Translations under genes and position numbers: made by a program
Shown here: positions 43,675 to 63,108 of the stretch, piece by piece
Position numbering within the stretch: position 1 is the first letter of the stretch
Layout: every line of letters begins with the position of its first letter
Notes under the pieces: model-generated
Database searches by the model: none
Told to the model about the DNA's origin: nothing
The model's input: the letters and a program-made list of their open reading frames with translations, nothing else
NCBI RefSeq assembly: GCF_018141425.1
Contig: NZ_CP058561.1
Location: forward strand, 1,364,001-1,428,000
DNA from: Vallitalea guaymasensis
GTDB lineage: Bacteria > Bacillota > Clostridia > Lachnospirales > Vallitaleaceae
Length of the DNA stretch: 64,000 nucleotides
Reading direction: 5' to 3'

Positions 43675-43790
43675 ACATAACGTTCCTTGTTTCTGACGTC
43701 TCTGAACTGGACTCACATAGCCCTTCTCCGTAGGCAGTACTTGCACCTGGTGAAGAGATGTGCGTAGCGAACAGAAATATTTTGTTAGGC
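43675..43790 (-). repeat. attC site, family I, 116 bp
   Basis: Minus strand: R'' GCCTAAC, R' GTTATGT. The arms TTTCTGACGTC and GCGTAGCGAACAGAAATAT pair, as do inner CTTCTCC/GGTGAAGAG blocks. Inner sequence TCTGAACTGG ... GCTTGCACCTGG defines family I together with 48334-48449, 57235-57349 and 60921-61035. Confidence 0.88.
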
Positions 43791-47845: not shown

Positions 47846-47917
47846 TTATAACATTAAGTAAATTGACGACGTCGACTCCCTCTTGGCTCTATTGATGTCA
47901 TCAATTGGCTGTTATGC
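47846..47917 (-). repeat. attC site, short type, 72 bp
   Basis: Minus strand: R'' GCATAAC, R' GTTATAA. The arms AATTGACGACGTCGA and ATTGATGTCATCAATT pair with a few wobbles around a short loop. Related in form to 51967-52040 and 59765-59839. Confidence 0.75.
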
Positions 47918-48333: not shown

Positions 48334-48449
48334 ACTTAACGTTTCCGTATTTCCCACGGCTCTGAACCAGACCTCAGAGCCTTTCTTCGTAGACGGTGCT
48401 TTCACCCGGTTAAGAGATATGTGTAGCAAACGGAAATATTTTGTTAGAA
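48334..48449 (-). repeat. attC site, family I, 116 bp
   Basis: Minus strand: R'' TTCTAAC, R' GTTAAGT. Interior TCTGAACCAGACCTCAGAGCC ... GGTGCTTTCACCCGG is family I. Arms GTTTCCGTATTTCCCACGG and GTAGCAAACGGAAATAT pair. Confidence 0.88.
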
Positions 48450-49426: not shown

Positions 49427-49565
49427 TTATAACGTCTCTGTATTTCCGACGTCCCAGCCAGCACCTTAGAAGGAATTGCTTATGCCCTGAATAAGTGCTA
49501 ATTCAATGACTGTCGGTGGGATGTGTGAGACCCCTATCCGAACGAATGGAAATACATTGTTATAT
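49427..49565 (-). repeat. attC site, family II, 139 bp
   Basis: Minus strand: R'' ATATAAC, R' GTTATAA. Arms TGTATTTCCGACGTCCC and GGGATGTGTGAGA ... GAATGGAAATACA pair; interior GCACCTTAGAAGG ... ATGCCCTGAATAAGTGC is family II. Confidence 0.85.
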
Positions 49566-50463: not shown

Positions 50464-50540
50464 GTCTAACTTTCTGGCTTCACGACGTCCTGGCTCCTTA
50501 GAGTGATTCCGCTCATACCACCCTCGTGGTGGATAATGTA
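50464..50540 (-). repeat. Half attC
   Basis: R' box GTCTAAC, then TTTCTGGCTTCACGACGTCC and GGCTCCTTAGAGTG ... CTCATACCACC are present. There is no R'' box before the next gene's stop at 50560. Confidence 0.55.
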
Positions 50541-50559
50541 GATTATTTTATCTTAGTCC

Positions 50560-51024
50560 TTAATATTGCATTAATGCAAAAACAATAAATGTTGGCACAT
50601 TTGCACTAAAAGACATTAAAACTGACTGAACACCTAATGCTATGTATGTTTTAGTAGTAGGTTTCTCCATACTAATCCTTCTATATAATAATAGTGATAG
50701 AAGCATTAGTAATGCAATTGGTATTATTCTAAAGACAGATGAAATTAGCATTCCTAAAAATCCATATGTAGTATTAGTCCATGTTTCAAATGGAATAAAT
50801 AAATCTATAATTAAGGCAACTGCTATCATAATCAGTGATGTCAGAAACTGTACCCCTAGCATTCCACCCCACATCTTAAAAATCTTTTTCATTCGCCATT
50901 CTAATTCTTTAGAAATAATAATAAAATTTATAATTAGCGGTAATATAAATACTATAAATATTCCTACAACACTTGCTATAATTATAAATATGAACCCTAG
51001 TAATACAATTGAAAATCCTGCCAT
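50560..51024 (-). CDS. Four-span membrane protein, unknown function
   Basis: Four long hydrophobic spans (FSIVLLGFIFIIIASVVGIFIVF and three more) in 154 residues. The ribosome site GGAG is 8 bases ahead of the ATG. No motif is recognised. Confidence 0.55.
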   Translation of the reverse strand: MAGFSIVLLGFIFIIIASVVGIFIVFILPLIINFIIISKELEWRMKKIFKMWGGMLGVQFLTSLIMIAVALIIDLFIPFETWTNTTYGFLGMLISSVFRIIPIALLMLLSLLLYRRISMEKPTTKTYIALGVQSVLMSFSANVPTFIVFALMQY

Positions 51025-51143: not shown

Positions 51144-51273
51144 ACATAACGTGTATGTGTTTGCGATGTCCCCCAACCTCTAGAAGGAGGTGCTCATGCC
51201 TTGAGTAATGGCTAATGTGCCGACTGTACCTTTAGGTCTTAGGTTGGGGGATGTTGTAAACACAGTGTTATGA
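51144..51273 (-). repeat. attC site, family II variant, 130 bp
   Basis: Minus strand: R'' TCATAAC, R' GTTATGT. A long stem: GTGTTTGCGATGTCCCCCAACCT pairs with AGGTTGGGGGATGTTGTAAACAC. Interior AGAAGGAGGTGCTCATGCCTTGAGTAATGG belongs to family II. Confidence 0.88.
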
Positions 51274-51966: not shown

Positions 51967-52040
51967 TCATAACGTTACGTGATTTGACGACATGGACATC
52001 CTTCCTTGTTACTATCCATGTCGTCAAATCGCTGTTATGG
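51967..52040 (-). repeat. attC site, short type, 74 bp
   Basis: Minus strand: R'' CCATAAC, R' GTTATGA. A nearly perfect stem, GATTTGACGACATGGA with TCCATGTCGTCAAATC, around a loop ATCCTTCCTTGTTAC. Confidence 0.9.
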
Positions 52041-52855: not shown

Positions 52856-53029
52856 CCATAACGTCCTTCGTTCACGACGTACCTACCACTCTAGAGGTGC
52901 TTGCTCATGGCGAACTTGCTTCGTCTAATGCGAGTGCCGTACCGACGGGCTTAGGGGGCTGTATGTGGTCGATATTCTTACTCCAAAGCCGTGCCCTCTG
53001 TCGACCCTTGCGTTAACGTATTGTTAGCT
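52856..53029 (-). repeat. attC site, 174 bp variant
   Basis: Minus strand: R'' AGCTAAC, R' GTTATGG. Left arm TAACGTCCTTCGTTCACGACGTACC; the right part GTCGATATTCTTACTCCAAAGCCGTGCCCTCTGTCGAC is an extra inner hairpin, found again at 58500-58550. Confidence 0.8.
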
Positions 53030-53058: not shown

Positions 53059-54120
53059 TCAGTTATCACCAAATTGTTCTATAAACTCAAATAGAATATT
53101 TACAAACTTAGTTGGTTGCTCAAAGTGAATATCGTGCCCGGACTTAATCGTAATAAGCTTAGTATCCTTAAACGAATTAACAACTCTACTGGCATCCTCA
53201 TCCGTGTTAGCTGCATACAAGACACCATCCTTACCATAATTAGTTCTAGCTTTAAGATAGATTGAAGGGCATTCAATATCACTAAGTAACTCCTCAATAT
53301 CTATTCCTTCCTTCCATCTACCACTATAAAATGTTTCTGCAAACTTCAAATCAAATTCATCAAGGTATCTGGTACCATGCAACCATTTATAAGGTATATA
53401 CCAAATTTTCAAAGCACTATTCTGATGCTTTAATCGATATTTCCTAGCTGTCTCATATACTAACTTTCTTAAGTCACCAAATAGGTTCCAAAAATAGCCA
53501 TTCAATATGTAATATAAGTCGTAATCTATTTCTGAACCATCAACCAAATACTTATGCACTACTTCAAAACCATCATGCCATACAAATGTATTCTTCATTT
53601 CATTAGGTTTAACTCTAAAGAAAGGTGGATCTTCAAATACTACACCTTTCACATAATCTTTAACATTAACAGTTAACCAAGCAGCTATGATTCCACCAGA
53701 AGAATGACCACAAACGATACAGTCATCTCCAATAACATTCTCAATGAACCACTTGAAATCATTTCCCATAAATTTACAAGTATACTTTAATTCATCATGA
53801 CTGGATTTACCATGACCATGGCAATCAATTGCATATACATGATACTTTTCTTTCAAACTAAGAAGAACATTGGCATAATCTTCCCAACACATTGTCTGGC
53901 CATGAATCAATAACAGTGGTTGCAAATCATTCTTGCATTCAACGTAATTTAAGATTGTACCATCGTCTAAGGCTACACTCTGCTCATTATAAACTCGTCT
54001 AACCTTAAACATTGGAATTCTATCATAATGTAGATTCATATAACAATATCTCAGAAATGCAATAAGTAATGCTAAAATTATTACATATAAAATCATCAAA
54101 TGAATTATGTCATCTAACAT
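53059..54120 (-). CDS. Alpha/beta hydrolase, membrane-anchored; start codon at the attC joint
   Basis: Residues 8-27 form one membrane span. The domain has LLIHGQTMCWEDY (oxyanion hole), DCHGHGKS, VCGHSSGGIIAAW (nucleophile Ser) and SGHDIHFEQP (His). 353 residues fits. The ATG (54118-54120) is the last three bases of the upstream cassette side, and the second codon TTA starts the GTTAGAT core of attC. The next ATG is eight codons on. Neither has a clear ribosome site. Confidence 0.85.
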   Translation of the reverse strand: MLDDIIHLMILYVIILALLIAFLRYCYMNLHYDRIPMFKVRRVYNEQSVALDDGTILNYVECKNDLQPLLLIHGQTMCWEDYANVLLSLKEKYHVYAIDCHGHGKSSHDELKYTCKFMGNDFKWFIENVIGDDCIVCGHSSGGIIAAWLTVNVKDYVKGVVFEDPPFFRVKPNEMKNTFVWHDGFEVVHKYLVDGSEIDYDLYYILNGYFWNLFGDLRKLVYETARKYRLKHQNSALKIWYIPYKWLHGTRYLDEFDLKFAETFYSGRWKEGIDIEELLSDIECPSIYLKARTNYGKDGVLYAANTDEDASRVVNSFKDTKLITIKSGHDIHFEQPTKFVNILFEFIEQFGDN

Positions 54121-54248
54121 TTCTTATTTCCAATGTCCTAGAGCCTTAGAGGGAGTTGCTCATGCCCTTGATAAGGGCTAATGCAACGACTGTCGCGACG
54201 CGCTTAGGCTGTGGAATGTGCGTAGCGAACGTAAATATTTTGTTAGAT
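54112..54248 (-). repeat. attC site, family II, 137 bp
   Basis: Minus strand: R'' ATCTAAC, R' GTTAGAT. Interior GAGCCTTAGAGGGAG ... CCCTTGATAAGGGC ... GACGCGCTTAGGCTGTGG; right arm GCGTAGCGAACGTAAATATTTTG. The usual ACG before the core has become ATG, forming the hydrolase start. Confidence 0.9.
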
Positions 54249-54913: not shown

Positions 54914-55072
54914 ATCTAACGTTTCCTTATTCCGACGTCCCAGCACCTTAGAAGGAGTTGCTCATGCCCTGATTAAGGGCTAATGCAACGACTGTCGCGA
55001 CGCGCGGGATGTGTAAGGGCATTTCTCAAAAGAATTACCCTTACCCGAACGAATGGCAATACATTGTTAGAT
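54914..55072 (-). repeat. attC site, family II, 159 bp
   Basis: Minus strand: R'' ATCTAAC, R' GTTAGAT. Interior CCCAGCACCTTAGAAGGAGT ... CCCTGATTAAGGG ... GCGGGATGTG, plus a second hairpin GTAAGGGCATT ... AATTACCCTTAC. Confidence 0.9.
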
Positions 55073-55602: not shown

Positions 55603-55808
55603 ATCTAACGTTACGTGTTCCTGACGTCCAAGCACCTTAGAAGCGCACTCTCCTGCTCTGATTAAGTAGCTAATATGGGCGCCGTCCCGTCAGGGCTTAG
55701 GTTGTGGGATGTGCGACTGTATTTCTATCAACTCTAGTTACCAATTACTATGGTAAAGCCTTCAAGTAATTATACCATGTTAGAGCGAACAGGAACATTT
55801 TGTTATAT
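55603..55808 (-). repeat. attC site, family II with extra hairpin, 206 bp
   Basis: Minus strand: R'' ATATAAC, R' GTTAGAT. Usual arms and CTTAG blocks, and a ~75-base insertion (55720-55790) with ACTATGGTA/TACCATGTTAG pairing before the GAGCGAACAGGAACAT arm. Confidence 0.85.
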
Positions 55809-56397: not shown

Positions 56398-56608
56398 ATC
56401 AAACGTTTCGTATTTCCGACGTCACAGCGCCTTAGAAGGAGTTGCTCATGCTTGTGAGTTTACGAACAGCTAATGCAACGAGAGTCCAGACTTGGCTTAG
56501 GCGGTGGGATGTGCGGTCAGTGTGGCAATTATTTATATTTCTGAGTATATTCCGTAGTCGTTAAACTCATTATACCATAACAGAGCGAACCGAAATATAT
56601 TGTTATAT
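56398..56608 (-). repeat. attC site, family II with extra hairpin, 211 bp
   Basis: Minus strand: R'' ATATAAC, R' GTTTGAT. Arms TCGTATTTCCGACGTCACAGCGCCTTAG and CTTAGGCGGTGGGATGTGC pair; a ~75-base insertion before GAGCGAACCGAAATATA resembles that of 55603-55808 and of 58255-58349. Confidence 0.85.
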
Positions 56609-57234: not shown

Positions 57235-57349
57235 ATCTAACGTCCCGTATTTCCGACGTCTCTGAACTGGACCCTCAAAGCCCTTCTCCCTGGCGGTGCT
57301 TGCACCCAGTGAAGAGATGTGCGTAGCGAACGGAAATATTTTGTTAGAT
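57235..57349 (-). repeat. attC site, family I, 115 bp
   Basis: Minus strand: R'' ATCTAAC, R' GTTAGAT. A textbook family I site: CGTCCCGTATTTCCGACGTC, CTGAACTGGACCCTC, CTTCTCCCTGGCGG, GGTGAAGAG-like and GCGTAGCGAACGGAAATATTTTG. Confidence 0.92.
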
Positions 57350-58641: not shown

Positions 58642-59679
58642 TTATTGCATATTCAAATGCTCATCAACTAACCATTTAATGTGTTCTTTAAAAGATTCAT
58701 GATACTTTGTATAACTATCAGCTTCATGTTGATAAAAATATACACTATTGTCATCATCAACTAATCTTATGCAATAATAGTCACCACCACCATTAGTTCC
58801 AATTGCAAAGTATTCTTTGTCCCTAATTTCTTTCTTCTTTTCTCTTGAATCAAGAGTATTGTATGCTATAAAACTTCGTAATGTGTGAAATAAGCTACTG
58901 TCTTTTCCAAGCCATACCCAATTATCATCATCAGCAGCGTCTTTATAATACAGAGACTCAGGAAAGTCACTTATTAGAAATCGTCTATAAAATTCAGGCA
59001 TTTTCACTCCTAATTCATTCTCTAATAAGTGGATCTTCTCAACTGTGAATCTAGTCCCAGTGAAATTAGGCAATCTTGTATTTACCCAAGGTTGCTTTTC
59101 TTTGGGATCTAGTTTATAACCTGACTTGATATAAACACCTTGTAGGTACTCGCAAATTTCTACTTGTCTATAGGATCGTGCATATGTATATGCATTCGTT
59201 TTCCCGAAGGACTCTGTATCGTATACTTTTGCGACATCCAAACCATTATCAACTAAGTATTTCACCACATGTAAATGCCCACTATTAATTGACTTAAACA
59301 ATGGATTAGATAAAATAGTACTATAATCATACTCAGCCCCATTCTCTCTAAGATATTTGACAACATCTAGGTGTCCTTTATCTGCCGCACTTGCAAGTGG
59401 ACGGCAATTATGTAAAGTTTCATTTTTATTTATATCAGCACCATTTTTGAGTAGTACTTTAACAGCTTCAAGGTTTCCTTTCTTTGCTGCAACATGTAAA
59501 AAAGTGCCAAACACAGTTATAATTCCTAGCATCTCAACATCTTCTTTAATCATCTTCTTAATAAGTTTAGTATCAGAATTATTGATTGCACTGTTAAACA
59601 TTATTACTTTCTCTTTGTCTTCTTCTTCAGCCATTCTCCATAAGATATTGCTCTCTGCTTTTCTTTTAAAAAACTTCAT
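58642..59679 (-). CDS. Ankyrin-repeat protein with C-terminal SMI1/KNR4 domain
   Basis: Residues 30-180 hold at least four ankyrin repeats (GTFLHVAAKKGNLEAVKVLLKNGADIN; RPLASAADKGHLDVVKYLRENGAE; NPLFKSINSGHLHVVKYLVDNG). Residues 210-340 match SMI1/KNR4 (FTVEKIHLLENELGVKMPEFYRRFLI; FAIGTNGGGDYYCIRL). SMI1 domains are frequent immunity proteins; ankyrin fusions are known in that group. 345 residues. Confidence 0.82.
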   Translation of the reverse strand: MKFFKRKAESNILWRMAEEEDKEKVIMFNSAINNSDTKLIKKMIKEDVEMLGIITVFGTFLHVAAKKGNLEAVKVLLKNGADINKNETLHNCRPLASAADKGHLDVVKYLRENGAEYDYSTILSNPLFKSINSGHLHVVKYLVDNGLDVAKVYDTESFGKTNAYTYARSYRQVEICEYLQGVYIKSGYKLDPKEKQPWVNTRLPNFTGTRFTVEKIHLLENELGVKMPEFYRRFLISDFPESLYYKDAADDDNWVWLGKDSSLFHTLRSFIAYNTLDSREKKKEIRDKEYFAIGTNGGGDYYCIRLVDDDNSVYFYQHEADSYTKYHESFKEHIKWLVDEHLNMQ

Positions 59680-59764: not shown

Positions 59765-59839
59765 TCATAACGTCCCGCGAACTAGCGACGTGTGGCATCC
59801 GTCCGATTAAAAGCCCATGTCGCTAGTTCGCTGTTAGCG
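59765..59839 (-). repeat. attC site, short type, 75 bp
   Basis: Minus strand: R'' CGCTAAC, R' GTTATGA. Nearly perfect stem GCGAACTAGCGACGTG with CATGTCGCTAGTTCGC around a short loop. Confidence 0.92.
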
Positions 59840-59865: not shown

Positions 59866-60882
59866 TCACCTCAAAGTTAGAACAGAAGCCTTTAATAATT
59901 CTATCTGTTCATCTAGCATCTTCATTGACTTAATTGTGTCTATAACTTGCTGGTAACCTAAATCACATTCATCTCTAGAATTAACTTCTATACCAATGGA
60001 TCTCTTTAAATTGTATTCAATCCATCCAATCATATTAATATTCAGAGCTCGCCACACATATTGGAGATCATTGAAGTGAATTGGACATACACTGTGATAA
60101 CCCTTTAATACCTCTAAGAATGCATCTATGTTTATTGTGCAGTCCTTACATTCTGACCAATATACCGCCACTTCGACTAGCTCAAATGTTGGATTAACGT
60201 AACCTGCTGCTTCCCAATCAATGATAATTGGTTTACCATCTACTCCCCACATTACATTCTTAGGATCAAGGTCACGATGGCTAATAACTTGACGCTCCAA
60301 TAATTCTAATGCTTTAAGTGATTCTGTCTCAGCTAAATCAATGTAATTAATATCAATATCTTCTAACCTCTTAAGTGTATCTGAGTTATTAGCTTGATCT
60401 AATATACCTTGCCAATCAATCTTACTACGCTTACCATCCTTAATATCAGGATTTTCAATTGATAAAAAATCAATCTGATGTAATTGTCCAAGAAGAACAC
60501 CTACCTTATAGCATTCGACCAAGTTCTCAGGTCTGTGCGTGTAAGAAAGTCCATCTAACCAGTCAAACACCTGATAATACTGTCCATCAATACTGTGTAT
60601 AGTCTTTCCTTCAATCTTCTTCACGGCCGAAGCAGATAGCCCCGTATTTACTGCAATGATTGATACCTCATCTGCAAATAAATGATTCTTCATAGCCGTA
60701 GGCCGCAACATTATCTGGGGATTTAAAGCCTTAATGAAATAATGCCCTTTACTTGTTGCCACATCAAACGACTTATGCAGTAGACCACCAAACACTTGCT
60801 TAGGCTTTTCAACTACCTCCCCCAACTCTAGCATCGTAGCTAACTCATCTATCCGTATGTTATATTCAACATTATTCTCCAA
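59866..60882 (-). CDS. Aminoglycoside phosphotransferase (APH) family kinase
   Basis: The protein-kinase-like APH fold is visible: FGGLLHKSFDVATSKGHYFIKAL (ATP loop and Lys), VISHRDLDPKNVMWG (Brenner HxDxxxxN) and PIIIDWEAAG (metal-binding Asp). 338 residues. Members phosphorylate aminoglycosides, homoserine or sugars, so resistance is possible but not shown. Confidence 0.85.
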   Translation of the reverse strand: MENNVEYNIRIDELATMLELGEVVEKPKQVFGGLLHKSFDVATSKGHYFIKALNPQIMLRPTAMKNHLFADEVSIIAVNTGLSASAVKKIEGKTIHSIDGQYYQVFDWLDGLSYTHRPENLVECYKVGVLLGQLHQIDFLSIENPDIKDGKRSKIDWQGILDQANNSDTLKRLEDIDINYIDLAETESLKALELLERQVISHRDLDPKNVMWGVDGKPIIIDWEAAGYVNPTFELVEVAVYWSECKDCTINIDAFLEVLKGYHSVCPIHFNDLQYVWRALNINMIGWIEYNLKRSIGIEVNSRDECDLGYQQVIDTIKSMKMLDEQIELLKASVLTLR

Positions 60883-60920: not shown

Positions 60921-61035
60921 CGCTAACGTTTCGTATTTCCGATGTCTCTGAACCGGACCCTCAGCGCTCTTCTCCCTGGCGGTGCTTGTACCCGGTGAAG
61001 AGATATGCGCAGCGAACGGAAATATATTGTTATAT
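60921..61035 (-). repeat. attC site of the first cassette, family I, 115 bp
   Basis: Minus strand: R'' ATATAAC, R' GTTAGCG. Arms CGTATTTCCGATGTC and GCGCAGCGAACGGAAATATATTG; interior CTGAACCGGACCCTCAGCGC ... GTGCTTGTACCCGGTG. It closes the cassette that starts at attI. Confidence 0.92.
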
Positions 61036-61075
61036 GACGTAAATTCTTGACCCCTTTGTATATATTAAAAAGGAG

Positions 61076-61966
61076 CTATTTGATCCCATACGATATAAGT
61101 GTACACGACGGCTTTAATATATACACTGTATCTTTATTATCTATTACATGGTCACATATACTCGCATGACTATCACTAAAAATTTTAGCTTCTCCTTTTG
61201 TAAGACCTCTGTCAACAAGAGTCTTCTTCATTTTTTCTTTATCCTCATATGATAGCCTTTTATTCCAGTCCCATGCTGTTGTTATTTCGTCATATTCCTT
61301 ACTATGTTTAGCACTATCACCATATGGATTGATAAATTTTACTCTGTCATTAAGACGGACATCTACATTCTTCAAACCTAGTTCTTGCATATATATTGGT
61401 ATCTTTATACCAACTCTATAATCTCTACCACCTTGATTCAATTCATTTCTATATATCTTTCTATATAAGGGTGTCATTCCAGTCCCAATGTAATCAAAAC
61501 CGCTAAAATATTGGACGGTCTTTTCAATCTCTAAATCACCTTCCAAACAGATGACCATACCACCTTTTATGACTGAATGTATCATTTTATTGAGAATGCT
61601 TTTGGCATTAGGAATATGTCGTAGAACTGCCTGTGAAATTGCTATGTCATATTTTTCTTCTGGTAAAAACTCATTCAAATCGCACTTAATAAAATTAGTA
61701 TCGTACTCAAGTTCTGTAAAAATATGTCGTGCATCATTCAACAATGTATCGCTAATATCAACTCCTGTATATGTACTACCCTCAGGTAGAATAGGTAAAA
61801 GCAATAAACCTATATAACCAAAACCACACCCATAATCAATTATCTTTACAGGTTTCTCAATCTTCCATACTTTGTCTACAAGAAATTCAATGTAATCATC
61901 ATTGCACCATCCATTGCGGATTGCTTTTAAAAACTCCAACCTATCATCCCAATATGAATCATTCAT
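61076..61966 (-). CDS. SAM-dependent methyltransferase (first cassette)
   Basis: Motif I IDYGCGFGYIGLLLLP, motif II GVDISDTLL and ISQAVLRHIPNAKSIL are in order, as in class I methyltransferases; GGMVICLEGDLEIEKT and the basic KMKKTLVDRG end follow. Substrate unknown. GGGAGG precedes the ATG. A paralogue with a deletion of the SAM-binding part lies at 3964-4621, almost 57 kb further from the integrase. Confidence 0.85.
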   Translation of the reverse strand: MNDSYWDDRLEFLKAIRNGWCNDDYIEFLVDKVWKIEKPVKIIDYGCGFGYIGLLLLPILPEGSTYTGVDISDTLLNDARHIFTELEYDTNFIKCDLNEFLPEEKYDIAISQAVLRHIPNAKSILNKMIHSVIKGGMVICLEGDLEIEKTVQYFSGFDYIGTGMTPLYRKIYRNELNQGGRDYRVGIKIPIYMQELGLKNVDVRLNDRVKFINPYGDSAKHSKEYDEITTAWDWNKRLSYEDKEKMKKTLVDRGLTKGEAKIFSDSHASICDHVIDNKDTVYILKPSCTLISYGIK

Positions 61967-62035
61967 GTTCTACCTCCCATATCTATAATTTGAGTTCTGT
62001 CAATACATAAACTGATCTACTTAGAAAGAATTTAT

Positions 62036-62109
62036 GTTATATAACTACAATATTTCCGAATGTCGCTAATACCTCCAAATCAGATGTATTACCGAACGTC
62101 GTAAATACT
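62036..62109 (-). other. Probable attI site
   Basis: ATATAAC (62039-62045) gives GTTATAT on the minus strand, and beside it is TATTTCCGAATGTCG, the same order as the R' arm of attC (core, spacer, TATTTCCGACGTC). Two direct repeats follow: 62050-62073 and 62086-62109 (about 18 of 24 bases equal), the layout of DR1/DR2 in known attI sites. It lies between the integrase stop and the first cassette gene. GTTATATAAC is itself palindromic. Confidence 0.75.
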
Positions 62110-62130
62110 TACTATCCCTTACTCTTCCCT

Positions 62131-62976
62131 TCACATAATATCATCCAACGGACTCTTAATACTCATAATATTCTTATTTGTAACATGTGTATATATTTCT
62201 GTGGTTTTTGAACTTGAATGACCTAATAATTCTTGTATATATCTAATATCTGTTCCACTTTCCAACAAATGAGTTGCAAAACTATGTCTAAGACTATGTA
62301 CAGATACTTTTTTCATTACACATCCTTTTTCACATGCATTTTTAAATATTCTTTGTACAGTTCTTTCTGTTATATGCTTATCTTTATCAGCACCTTCAAA
62401 TAACCATTTATTTGGTCTATATTCCTTATAATACTTCCTTAATTGTAACAAAATACTTTCTGATAACATAACATATCTATCTTTGTTACCCTTACCTTGC
62501 TCTATCTTAATCAGCATTCTTTGACTATCTATATCATTTATTTTTAATTTTACTACTTCACCAACTCTTAATCCTGAAGAATATATTAATGCTAATAAAG
62601 TTTTATGTTTATTATTTTGTAATGATGCCAAAATACTTTTTACTTCTTTTTTACTTAATACATTTGGCAATTTTCTTTCTTTTTTTGGTCTTTCAACATA
62701 TACCGTTAACTTTAATTTATGTAATACATGTTCATTCAGAAACTTTATACTGCTGATTGTTTGATTAACATAACTATGTGAACATTCTTTTTCCATAAGA
62801 TAACTTAAATACATTTTCACATCTGTCTCAGTAATTTCAATAATATCCTTTTTAATATAATCAATAAACCGTTTAATATGACTTATATAACATTTTTTAG
62901 TCTTACTTGAATAACCTTGTATAGTTAACTCTTGGGTATATTTCCTTATTATATTATCATTACTATCTGTTATCAA
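62131..62976 (-). CDS. Tyrosine recombinase, integron-like integrase without the IntI insertion
   Basis: The start is TTG (62974-62976) with AGGATG 9 bases ahead; no in-frame ATG lies upstream. Residues 6-90 form the core-binding SAM-like domain; residues 105-281 the catalytic domain with R137 (SSGLRVGE), K162 (GKGNKDR), H227 and R230 (HSLRH), H253 (LGHSS) and Y262 (YTHV). The C-terminus IKSPLDDIM resembles IntI ends. From GKG to HxLRH there are 71 residues; in IntI1, about 110. So the IntI-specific extra domain is absent. Likely acts on the attC/attI sites; this is inference. Confidence 0.85.
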   Translation of the reverse strand: MITDSNDNIIRKYTQELTIQGYSSKTKKCYISHIKRFIDYIKKDIIEITETDVKMYLSYLMEKECSHSYVNQTISSIKFLNEHVLHKLKLTVYVERPKKERKLPNVLSKKEVKSILASLQNNKHKTLLALIYSSGLRVGEVVKLKINDIDSQRMLIKIEQGKGNKDRYVMLSESILLQLRKYYKEYRPNKWLFEGADKDKHITERTVQRIFKNACEKGCVMKKVSVHSLRHSFATHLLESGTDIRYIQELLGHSSSKTTEIYTHVTNKNIMSIKSPLDDIM

Positions 62977-63108
62977 ATGTCATCATCCTTCTAAGTAAGA
63001 ATCTCCCCTAATTATACCTTAGCTATAATAAATCTAATTTAAATTATATGTATTAACTAATATTTTGTCAATTAGTTACAAATTCAATAGAAAACTGTAA
63101 TAATTTAT
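62975..63108 (-). repeat. Integrase leader, duplicated at 40755-40896
   Basis: Covers the 5' untranslated region and promoter of the integrase gene. About 80% identical by eye to 40755-40896. Confidence 0.75.
63043..63071 (-). promoter_or_regulatory. Sigma-A promoter of the integrase gene
   Basis: TTGACA (63066-63071) and TATAAT (63043-63048) with a 17-base spacer on the minus strand, a perfect consensus. Start of transcription would lie near 63036, giving an untranslated leader of about 60 bases. Since cassettes follow in the same direction, the transcript may reach them. No LexA-type box is seen in the leader. Confidence 0.8.

Follow-up and report, generated by a model that had tools for sequence, protein, structure and literature searches.

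Recombinase gene, attI-like site and cassette array

The window, i.e., the whole stretch of 64,000 nucleotides analysed here, covers positions 1,364,001-1,428,000 of the single-contig 5.6-Mb genome of Vallitalea guaymasensis. Among its ORFs of at least 80 aa, 73 of 84 lie on the minus strand, which is the direction of an integrase gene whose stop codon TGA (62131-62133) adjoins a site of attI type. The features of this part of the window are the following:

62039-62110, minus strand: putative attI, with the R site GTTATAT, the crossover G|TT between 62045 and 62044, the L arm and the second repeat
62051-62074, plus strand: attI direct repeat 1, sharing the attC L-box TATTTCCGA and identical to repeat 2 at 19 of 24 positions
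62087-62110, plus strand: attI direct repeat 2, the best 24-mer partner of the repeat at 62051
62131-62976, minus strand: tyrosine recombinase (integrase) of 281 aa with a TTG start and no IntI additional domain (profile searches, alignment)
63043-63071, minus strand: consensus promoter-like site TTGACA-17-TATAAT (12/12) upstream of the integrase, a consensus match only

Read along the plus strand, the site is made of ATATAAC (62039-62045), TACAA, TATTTCCGAATGTCG (62051-62065) and the second repeat from 62087. A first-pass annotation made from the sequence alone had interpreted 62036-62109 as an attI placed beside the integrase stop, with two direct repeats of about 24 bp, 36 bp apart, resembling DR1/DR2. 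This reading is supported and both the placing and the repeats held, with integrase binding being inferred. Indeed, the 24-mers starting at 62051 and 62087 form the best pair, and their 19 identities compare with at most 17 in 1000 dinucleotide-preserving shuffles of 62036-62131 (0/1000 as good), so that chance repeats can be ruled out. Both spacers given by the annotation were one nucleotide too small, as five nucleotides rather than four follow ATATAAC, and six rather than five separate the TAAC core from the L box in all four window attCs measured. In one and the same palindrome scan, the two attI repeats of the sister genome G005 counted as imperfect palindromes as well, and neither of those of the window did.

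The R site of integron attIs has the consensus GTTRRRY. That of the window (GTTATAT) fits this G|TTRRRY kind save for one base. The annotation had also claimed that attI shares the attC arm. This held in the window, where the L arm of attI clearly resembles the attC arm, but not in G017 and G013, in which no such likeness was seen by eye. The expected co-variation of the attI L arm with the attCs of the same genome was not seen by eye in these two genomes, and the part shared by attI and attC is a general GTCG-like box. In a search for a cassette promoter Pc, 10 promoter-like sites were found in the region for a shuffle mean of 11.1, i.e., not above chance.

Between 28001 and 62131, the attC detector made 15 calls on the cassette strand, all located between 43675 and 61035 and two of them weak or doubtful; the opposite strand and three shuffles yielded none. 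Left of 43675, only attC-like fragments occur, to about 30 kb. The first cassette and the detector calls are listed below:

60927-62044, minus strand: first cassette, beginning with TTATAT and ending at the G of its attC, with a methyltransferase-like gene at 61076-61966
60921-61035, minus strand: attC 1
59765-59839, minus strand: attC of the short type, whose R'' CGCTAAC pairs with R' GTTAGCG of the preceding attC; in the covariation test
57235-57349, minus strand: attC
56398-56608, minus strand: attC
55603-55808, minus strand: attC
54914-55072, minus strand: attC
54112-54248, minus strand: attC, weak (score 20.8)
52856-53029, minus strand: attC
51967-52040, minus strand: attC of the short type with a long hairpin; in the covariation test
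51144-51273, minus strand: attC with a long hairpin
50464-50654, minus strand: attC with a doubtful left arm
49427-49565, minus strand: attC
48334-48449, minus strand: attC
47846-47917, minus strand: attC of the short type; in the covariation test
43675-43790, minus strand: last attC called

The R'' of the first cassette's attC (ATATAAC) is complementary to the start of that cassette. A Pfam scan of ten array ORFs revealed domains in nine and none in one, the domains being methyltransferase, APH-type phosphotransferase (cassette gene at 59866-60882), ankyrin/SUKH, prephenate dehydratase, histidine phosphatase, NUDIX (twice), nitroreductase and alpha/beta hydrolase. No Rfam match reached the gathering score. 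PADLOC yielded only weak or generic matches (mad2, PDC-M72A, PDC-S07) on ten array proteins, with the ORF 58642-59679 among them, and no defence system is claimed. Near-identical repeats, possibly duplicated cassette pieces, are found at 49819-49914/58395-58490 (97%) and 32221-32351/36795-36925 (98%).

attC sites, pairing rule and cassette movement

The detector scores the R' arm together with the stem; its motifs come from the same arrays and its thresholds were set by the analyst. In ten stretches taken 3' of the integrase, 15 attCs were called in the window, 16 in G019, 13 in G017, nine in G013, nine in G599, one in G561, one in G610, 16 in G616, eight in G444 and four in G042. No attC was called on either strand of the five control stretches, which lie on the other side of the integrase, and 45 shuffles (three per each of 15 stretches) gave two in total. 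Opposite-strand calls were limited to six in G019 and three in G017, the other eight stretches having none. In G561 (L082) and G610 (L083), the integrase and an attI-like site are present along with the single attC call. Long near-identical direct repeats are contained in both these stretches.

Other detection strategies were less successful. Strict palindrome scans missed most window attCs because the L boxes have mismatches. A first PWM loop, which drifted to noise, was dropped, its last round giving 30 matches in real sequence vs 36, 44 and 33 in shuffles. A simple search for hairpins returned up to 11 matches per array and was also positive in controls (2, 2, 0, 0 and 1), which is the reason why the motif-plus-stem detector was used.

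In integrons, the R'' box pairs with the R' triplet starting the same cassette, a triplet that belongs, in an array, to the preceding site. The corresponding R'(k-1)/R''(k) triplets are perfect in 53 of 81 adjacent pairs, one G019 call located before attI being omitted from the count, for a permuted mean of 9.5 and a permuted maximum of 19. Elsewhere, perfect triplets amount to 12/91 within the same attC and 56/947 in non-adjacent pairs. Perfect pairing between the triplet following the G|TT of attI and the R'' box of the first attC is seen in seven of nine arrays, including that of the window. In these nine arrays attI was placed by eye, and G042 was left out as no attI was located. The two misses are G444, with two of three bases, and G610, which results from a wrongly placed attI string and was counted as a miss. 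For the window taken by itself, perfect triplets are restricted to 5 of 14 adjacent pairs, and the array is therefore partly degraded or some attCs were missed.

Covariation was assessed on 20 short attCs from four genomes, picked from the calls and sequence-aligned, with a 16-pair stem drawn from them. In this stem, 89.3% of cells pair and 13 of the 16 pairs change on both sides. The covariation score is 0.472 vs 0.152 in shuffles (0/500) and does not exceed 0.10 when the stem is slid, although such scores are favoured by the relatedness of the rows and by the derivation of the stem from these very rows. Covariation across the loop still argues for a folded strand.

The first cassette boundary had been placed at 62039-62045 by the first-pass annotation, a claim to be given up if the boundary mapped elsewhere in relatives. 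The claim held, as no such displacement is observed in two genome pairs. Aligned with G005, whose integrase is 91% identical, the window displays 72 identities, 6 mismatches and 4 gap positions over the 80 nt before G|TT vs 55 identities, 36 mismatches and 18 gap positions over the next 100 nt. The platform is thus common to both genomes and the first cassette differs. In the second pair, G017 and G013 are identical at 298 of 300 nt before G|TT and then carry a different cassette; their integrase and attI are 98.7% identical over 1382 bp and the sequences diverge at G|TTA. The first cassette of G013, located at attI, is present in two copies within the array of G017 (96.3% and 94.8% over 534 columns). 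Likewise, an 835-bp cassette with a G|TTA joint at both ends is 99.88% identical in both genomes and has different neighbours in each. Cassettes therefore move as units, as shown by the comparison of G013 and G017, which does not extend to the window's own species. In addition, the contigs of the draft genomes G375 and G567 (L064, L067) stop exactly at the G of attI, which suggests, by inference, that the sampled population is mixed for the next cassette.

A recombinase family without I2

The window recombinase, whose closest named relative is the integrase of a Vallitalea MAG (91% identical), is composed of a SAM-like N-terminal domain and a phage-integrase domain. Its catalytic residues are R136, K161, H226, R229, H252 and Y261, the R-K-H-R-H-Y set being present in 21/21 aligned sequences. 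The TIGR02249 profile scores 232.7 bits on this protein, below the cut-off of 265, and matches in two stretches that leave profile positions ~180-233 uncovered, whereas the XerA-type NF040815 profile exceeds its cut-off (230.8 vs 220 bits). The best PDB sequence match is IntI4, which is also the top Foldseek match (2a3v, E 1.1e-17) of the AlphaFold2 model (12 sequences, mean pLDDT 87.8, pTM 0.65). With VIA-align, Z reaches 23.1 for XerA, 21.1 for IntI4 and 21.0 for XerH, with a large rmsd for the top two (13.3 and 7.2, respectively). Since both Xer and IntI structures match, the fold does not decide.

The insertion characterizing IntI (I2, near patch III) is empty in 18/18 family members aligned with three IntI. 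Consistently, the KDR-to-HxLRH distance is 58-60 residues in 37/37 family members, two of which have identical sequences, vs 99-100 residues in five of six IntI, the sixth being not measured. In the neighbouring tree branch, it is 58-65 residues in 16 of 18 sequences. The 37 members were assigned by similarity and tree, and arrays were scanned beside ten only. The window recombinase is thus not an IntI by the accepted criterion, as it is devoid of I2 and stays below the TIGR02249 cut-off. Neither this lack of the IntI-defining domain nor the membership in a widespread family had been mentioned in the first-pass annotation. No TIGR02249 match over the cut-off was detected in the ten genomes scanned, six of them being single-contig. 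Among 398 Bacillota genomes, this profile gave six matches at 1e-40, two of them over the cut-off; three of the four others (G704, G781, G1035) are I2-less family members.

In the tree, the 37 family members stand on one side of a branch with a support of 96/90 (94/85 after removal of two long rows), and the six IntI form a separate group (100/99). The neighbouring branch is the sister group of the family, with weak support (91/47). The rooting of the integrase tree is unsure because long Xer branches meet and the AU test does not reject family and IntI as one clade (p 0.082).

Regarding distribution, the family occurs in Clostridia, in other Bacillota and on plasmids of Bacteroidota. Genome counts include the window's own genome. 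An integrase match was obtained at 1e-60 in 14/59 genomes searched as relatives, at 1e-68 in 12/295 genomes of the order, and in 20/391 genomes of the class. According to the tree and the downstream DNA, ten of the 12 order genomes read as family and two (G055, G197) as neighbouring branch. By eye, many genera show an attI-like site with G|TT behind the recombinase stop, and most of the post-stop sequences have a G|TTA joint behind repeats, with L031, L033, L039 and L062 unclear or interrupted. Measurement of 29 post-stop regions, for which a mechanical boundary was used that is wrong for some rows, revealed two or more palindromes in 16/29 (47 in all vs 23.5 expected). A direct repeat matched by no more than one of 40 shuffles occurs in 14/29, so that it is not significant in every member. 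On plasmids, relatives of the recombinase, considered without any attC search, are 47.7-48.3% identical in Chryseobacterium, Rufibacter and Persicobacter and 44.7% in Pontibacter; behind the integrase, the Rufibacter plasmid carries eight same-strand ORFs.

At least 16 family members (L062, L064, L066, L074-L076, L078-L080, L031, L035, L095, L096, L098, L100 and L105) possess about 75 extra N-terminal residues with the core W-x6-W-x2-P. Of these 16 N-termini, eight match HARP (PF07443) with an E-value of 1 or lower (best 1.4e-6); the listed match has 16.9 bits vs a cut-off of 25, and a separate HARP search of two proteins gave 13.9 bits in one and nothing in the other. DUF5710 matches 4/16 (best 3.5e-4), and the nearest solved chain, the SMARCAL1-like HARP 4o66, is not significant (E 0.055). 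A HARP-like nature of the extra domain is thus no more than a possibility. This domain is not essential since it is missing in the window protein as well as in G005 and G001, the two relatives closest to it.

Alternative explanations and relation to known integrons

Very likely, an integron-like platform has its attI at 62039-62110 and is served by the adjacent recombinase (62131-62976), with recombination and catalysis being inferred. It may be objected that the array is a CALIN built in trans by a canonical IntI, with the adjacent recombinase being a bystander of XerA kind. In favour of this view, the recombinase passes the NF040815 cut-off and fails TIGR02249, and I2 has been called necessary for cassette capture (PMC7790495). 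However, none of the ten genomes, six of which are single-contig, contains an over-cut-off TIGR02249 match, attI-like G|TT sites follow the recombinase stop in many genera, as judged by eye, and the triplet of the first cassette pairs with the first attC in 7/9 arrays. The bystander hypothesis was rejected on the attC calls, the pairing rule and the lack of IntI over cut-off in the ten genomes, and a CALIN built in trans is very improbable. Even less room is left for an ordinary chromosomal integron with a true IntI. This explanation relies on the anatomy of attI and attC and on IntI4 as best Foldseek match, but it is practically excluded by the 58-60 residues between motifs in all 37 members, compared with 99-100 in five of six IntI, and by the separate tree groups formed by family and IntI (96/90 and 100/99).

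The recombinase might also act in an Xer-like manner on double-stranded sites, in which case attC palindromes would be duplex sites and the hairpin would have no role. The lack of an I2 helix to hold extrahelical bases and the highest VIA-align Z obtained for XerA, though with a large rmsd, speak for it. Conversely, the R''/R' and L''/L' boxes of one cassette, ~60-210 nt apart once folded together, covary, which fits a folded strand and not two independent duplex sites. Use of duplex sites hence appears unlikely.

Under the preferred reading of an integron-like platform, the recombinase 62131-62976 would insert circular gene cassettes at G|TT (62045/62044), and the array would run from attI toward lower coordinates. 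Each cassette would carry at its end an attC that folds into a hairpin by pairing of R''/L'' with L'/R', the folded strand being most likely the recombination substrate, as in integrons. As integrase and cassettes are transcribed the same way, the integrase gene has attI at its 3' end. The in silico evidence shows the site and its boundary, the cassette rule, the displacement between two related genomes, the attC covariation, the absence of I2 and the absence of an over-cut-off IntI in ten genomes, whereas catalysis by this enzyme, the use of single-stranded attCs and I2-free hairpin recognition are inferred. Because of its integron-like anatomy without I2, the locus is filed as an integron-like system with a non-IntI integrase. 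A bolder reading, toward which the balance does not quite tip, is that a second, IntI-independent recombinase lineage runs I2-less integrons in Clostridia, other Bacillota and Bacteroidota. Hairpin recombination would then have evolved separately or would predate I2, and the N-terminal, perhaps HARP-like, domain may read the folded attC in the place of I2 in many members.

The platform shares with IntI integrons (class 1, Vibrio and other sedentary chromosomal ones) an attI with G|TT and repeats, attCs with R''/L''/L'/R', one-direction cassettes, the boundary rule and a tyrosine recombinase beside attI. Unlike in these integrons, the Vallitalea recombinase lacks I2 and its gene runs toward attI, and at least 16 members of its family carry the extra N-terminal domain. 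Transcription of intI toward attI is also a feature of Treponema integrons (PMC3607928), and archaeal integrons have attI immediately downstream of intI (PMC9668308). Nevertheless, in contrast with the Vallitalea protein, archaeal IntI is reported with the IntI-specific domain (PMC9668308), and T. denticola belongs to a set selected for matching the IntI domain (PMC3108266). Tyrosine recombinases of the neighbouring branch, 34-45% identical to the Vallitalea protein, are likewise devoid of I2. Unlike the Vallitalea platform, the six genes inspected (L037, L040-L044) run straight into an ORF without attI, an ORF which we take, by eye, to encode an IS91-like transposase. XerA/NF040815 proteins resemble the Vallitalea recombinase in fold and in the family score that it attains (230.8 vs 220), but differ in that the latter adjoins an attI and a cassette array.

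Escudero et al. (2020) described I2 as necessary for cassette capture and as present in no other protein (PMC7790495). Selection for the IntI domain was applied by Nemergut (2008, PMC2426708) and Cambray (2011, PMC3108266), and, according to Ghaly et al. (2022), IntegronFinder requires the IntI-specific domain profile (PMC9668308). Integron searches relying on I2 would therefore miss platforms of this family. With IntegronFinder 2.0, one complete integron was found in Firmicutes, that of Limnochorda pilosa, plus a few CALIN (PMC9024848). The nearest hint to I2-less integrases in the literature searched is given by Smyshlyaev et al. (2021), for whom the insertion is not fully conserved in an integron-like subgroup, yet essential (PMC8138268). 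No description of I2-less integron integrases with arrays in Clostridia was found in the open-access literature searched (titles and abstract starts, preprints and most subscription journals being outside), which does not show their absence from print. If the family works, the rule of I2 necessity for cassette capture is wrong, the count of one complete integron in Firmicutes is an underestimate, and a comparison of I2-bearing with I2-free enzymes would make it possible to test how single-strand cassette recombination arose.

The family may also bear on the spread of some resistance genes because a relative adjoins tet(X3) on the plasmid pHH1107, which is only a lead. On this plasmid (L104, 2543-4564), a shorter recombinase relative annotated as TnpF, 53% identical where matching, stands directly before tet(X3), and the gap between both genes contains an attI-like palindrome and a G|TTA joint. 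Entry of tet(X3) as a cassette of such a platform is conceivable, again as a lead only. Among the plasmid records matched, 48 of 64 are from Acinetobacter.
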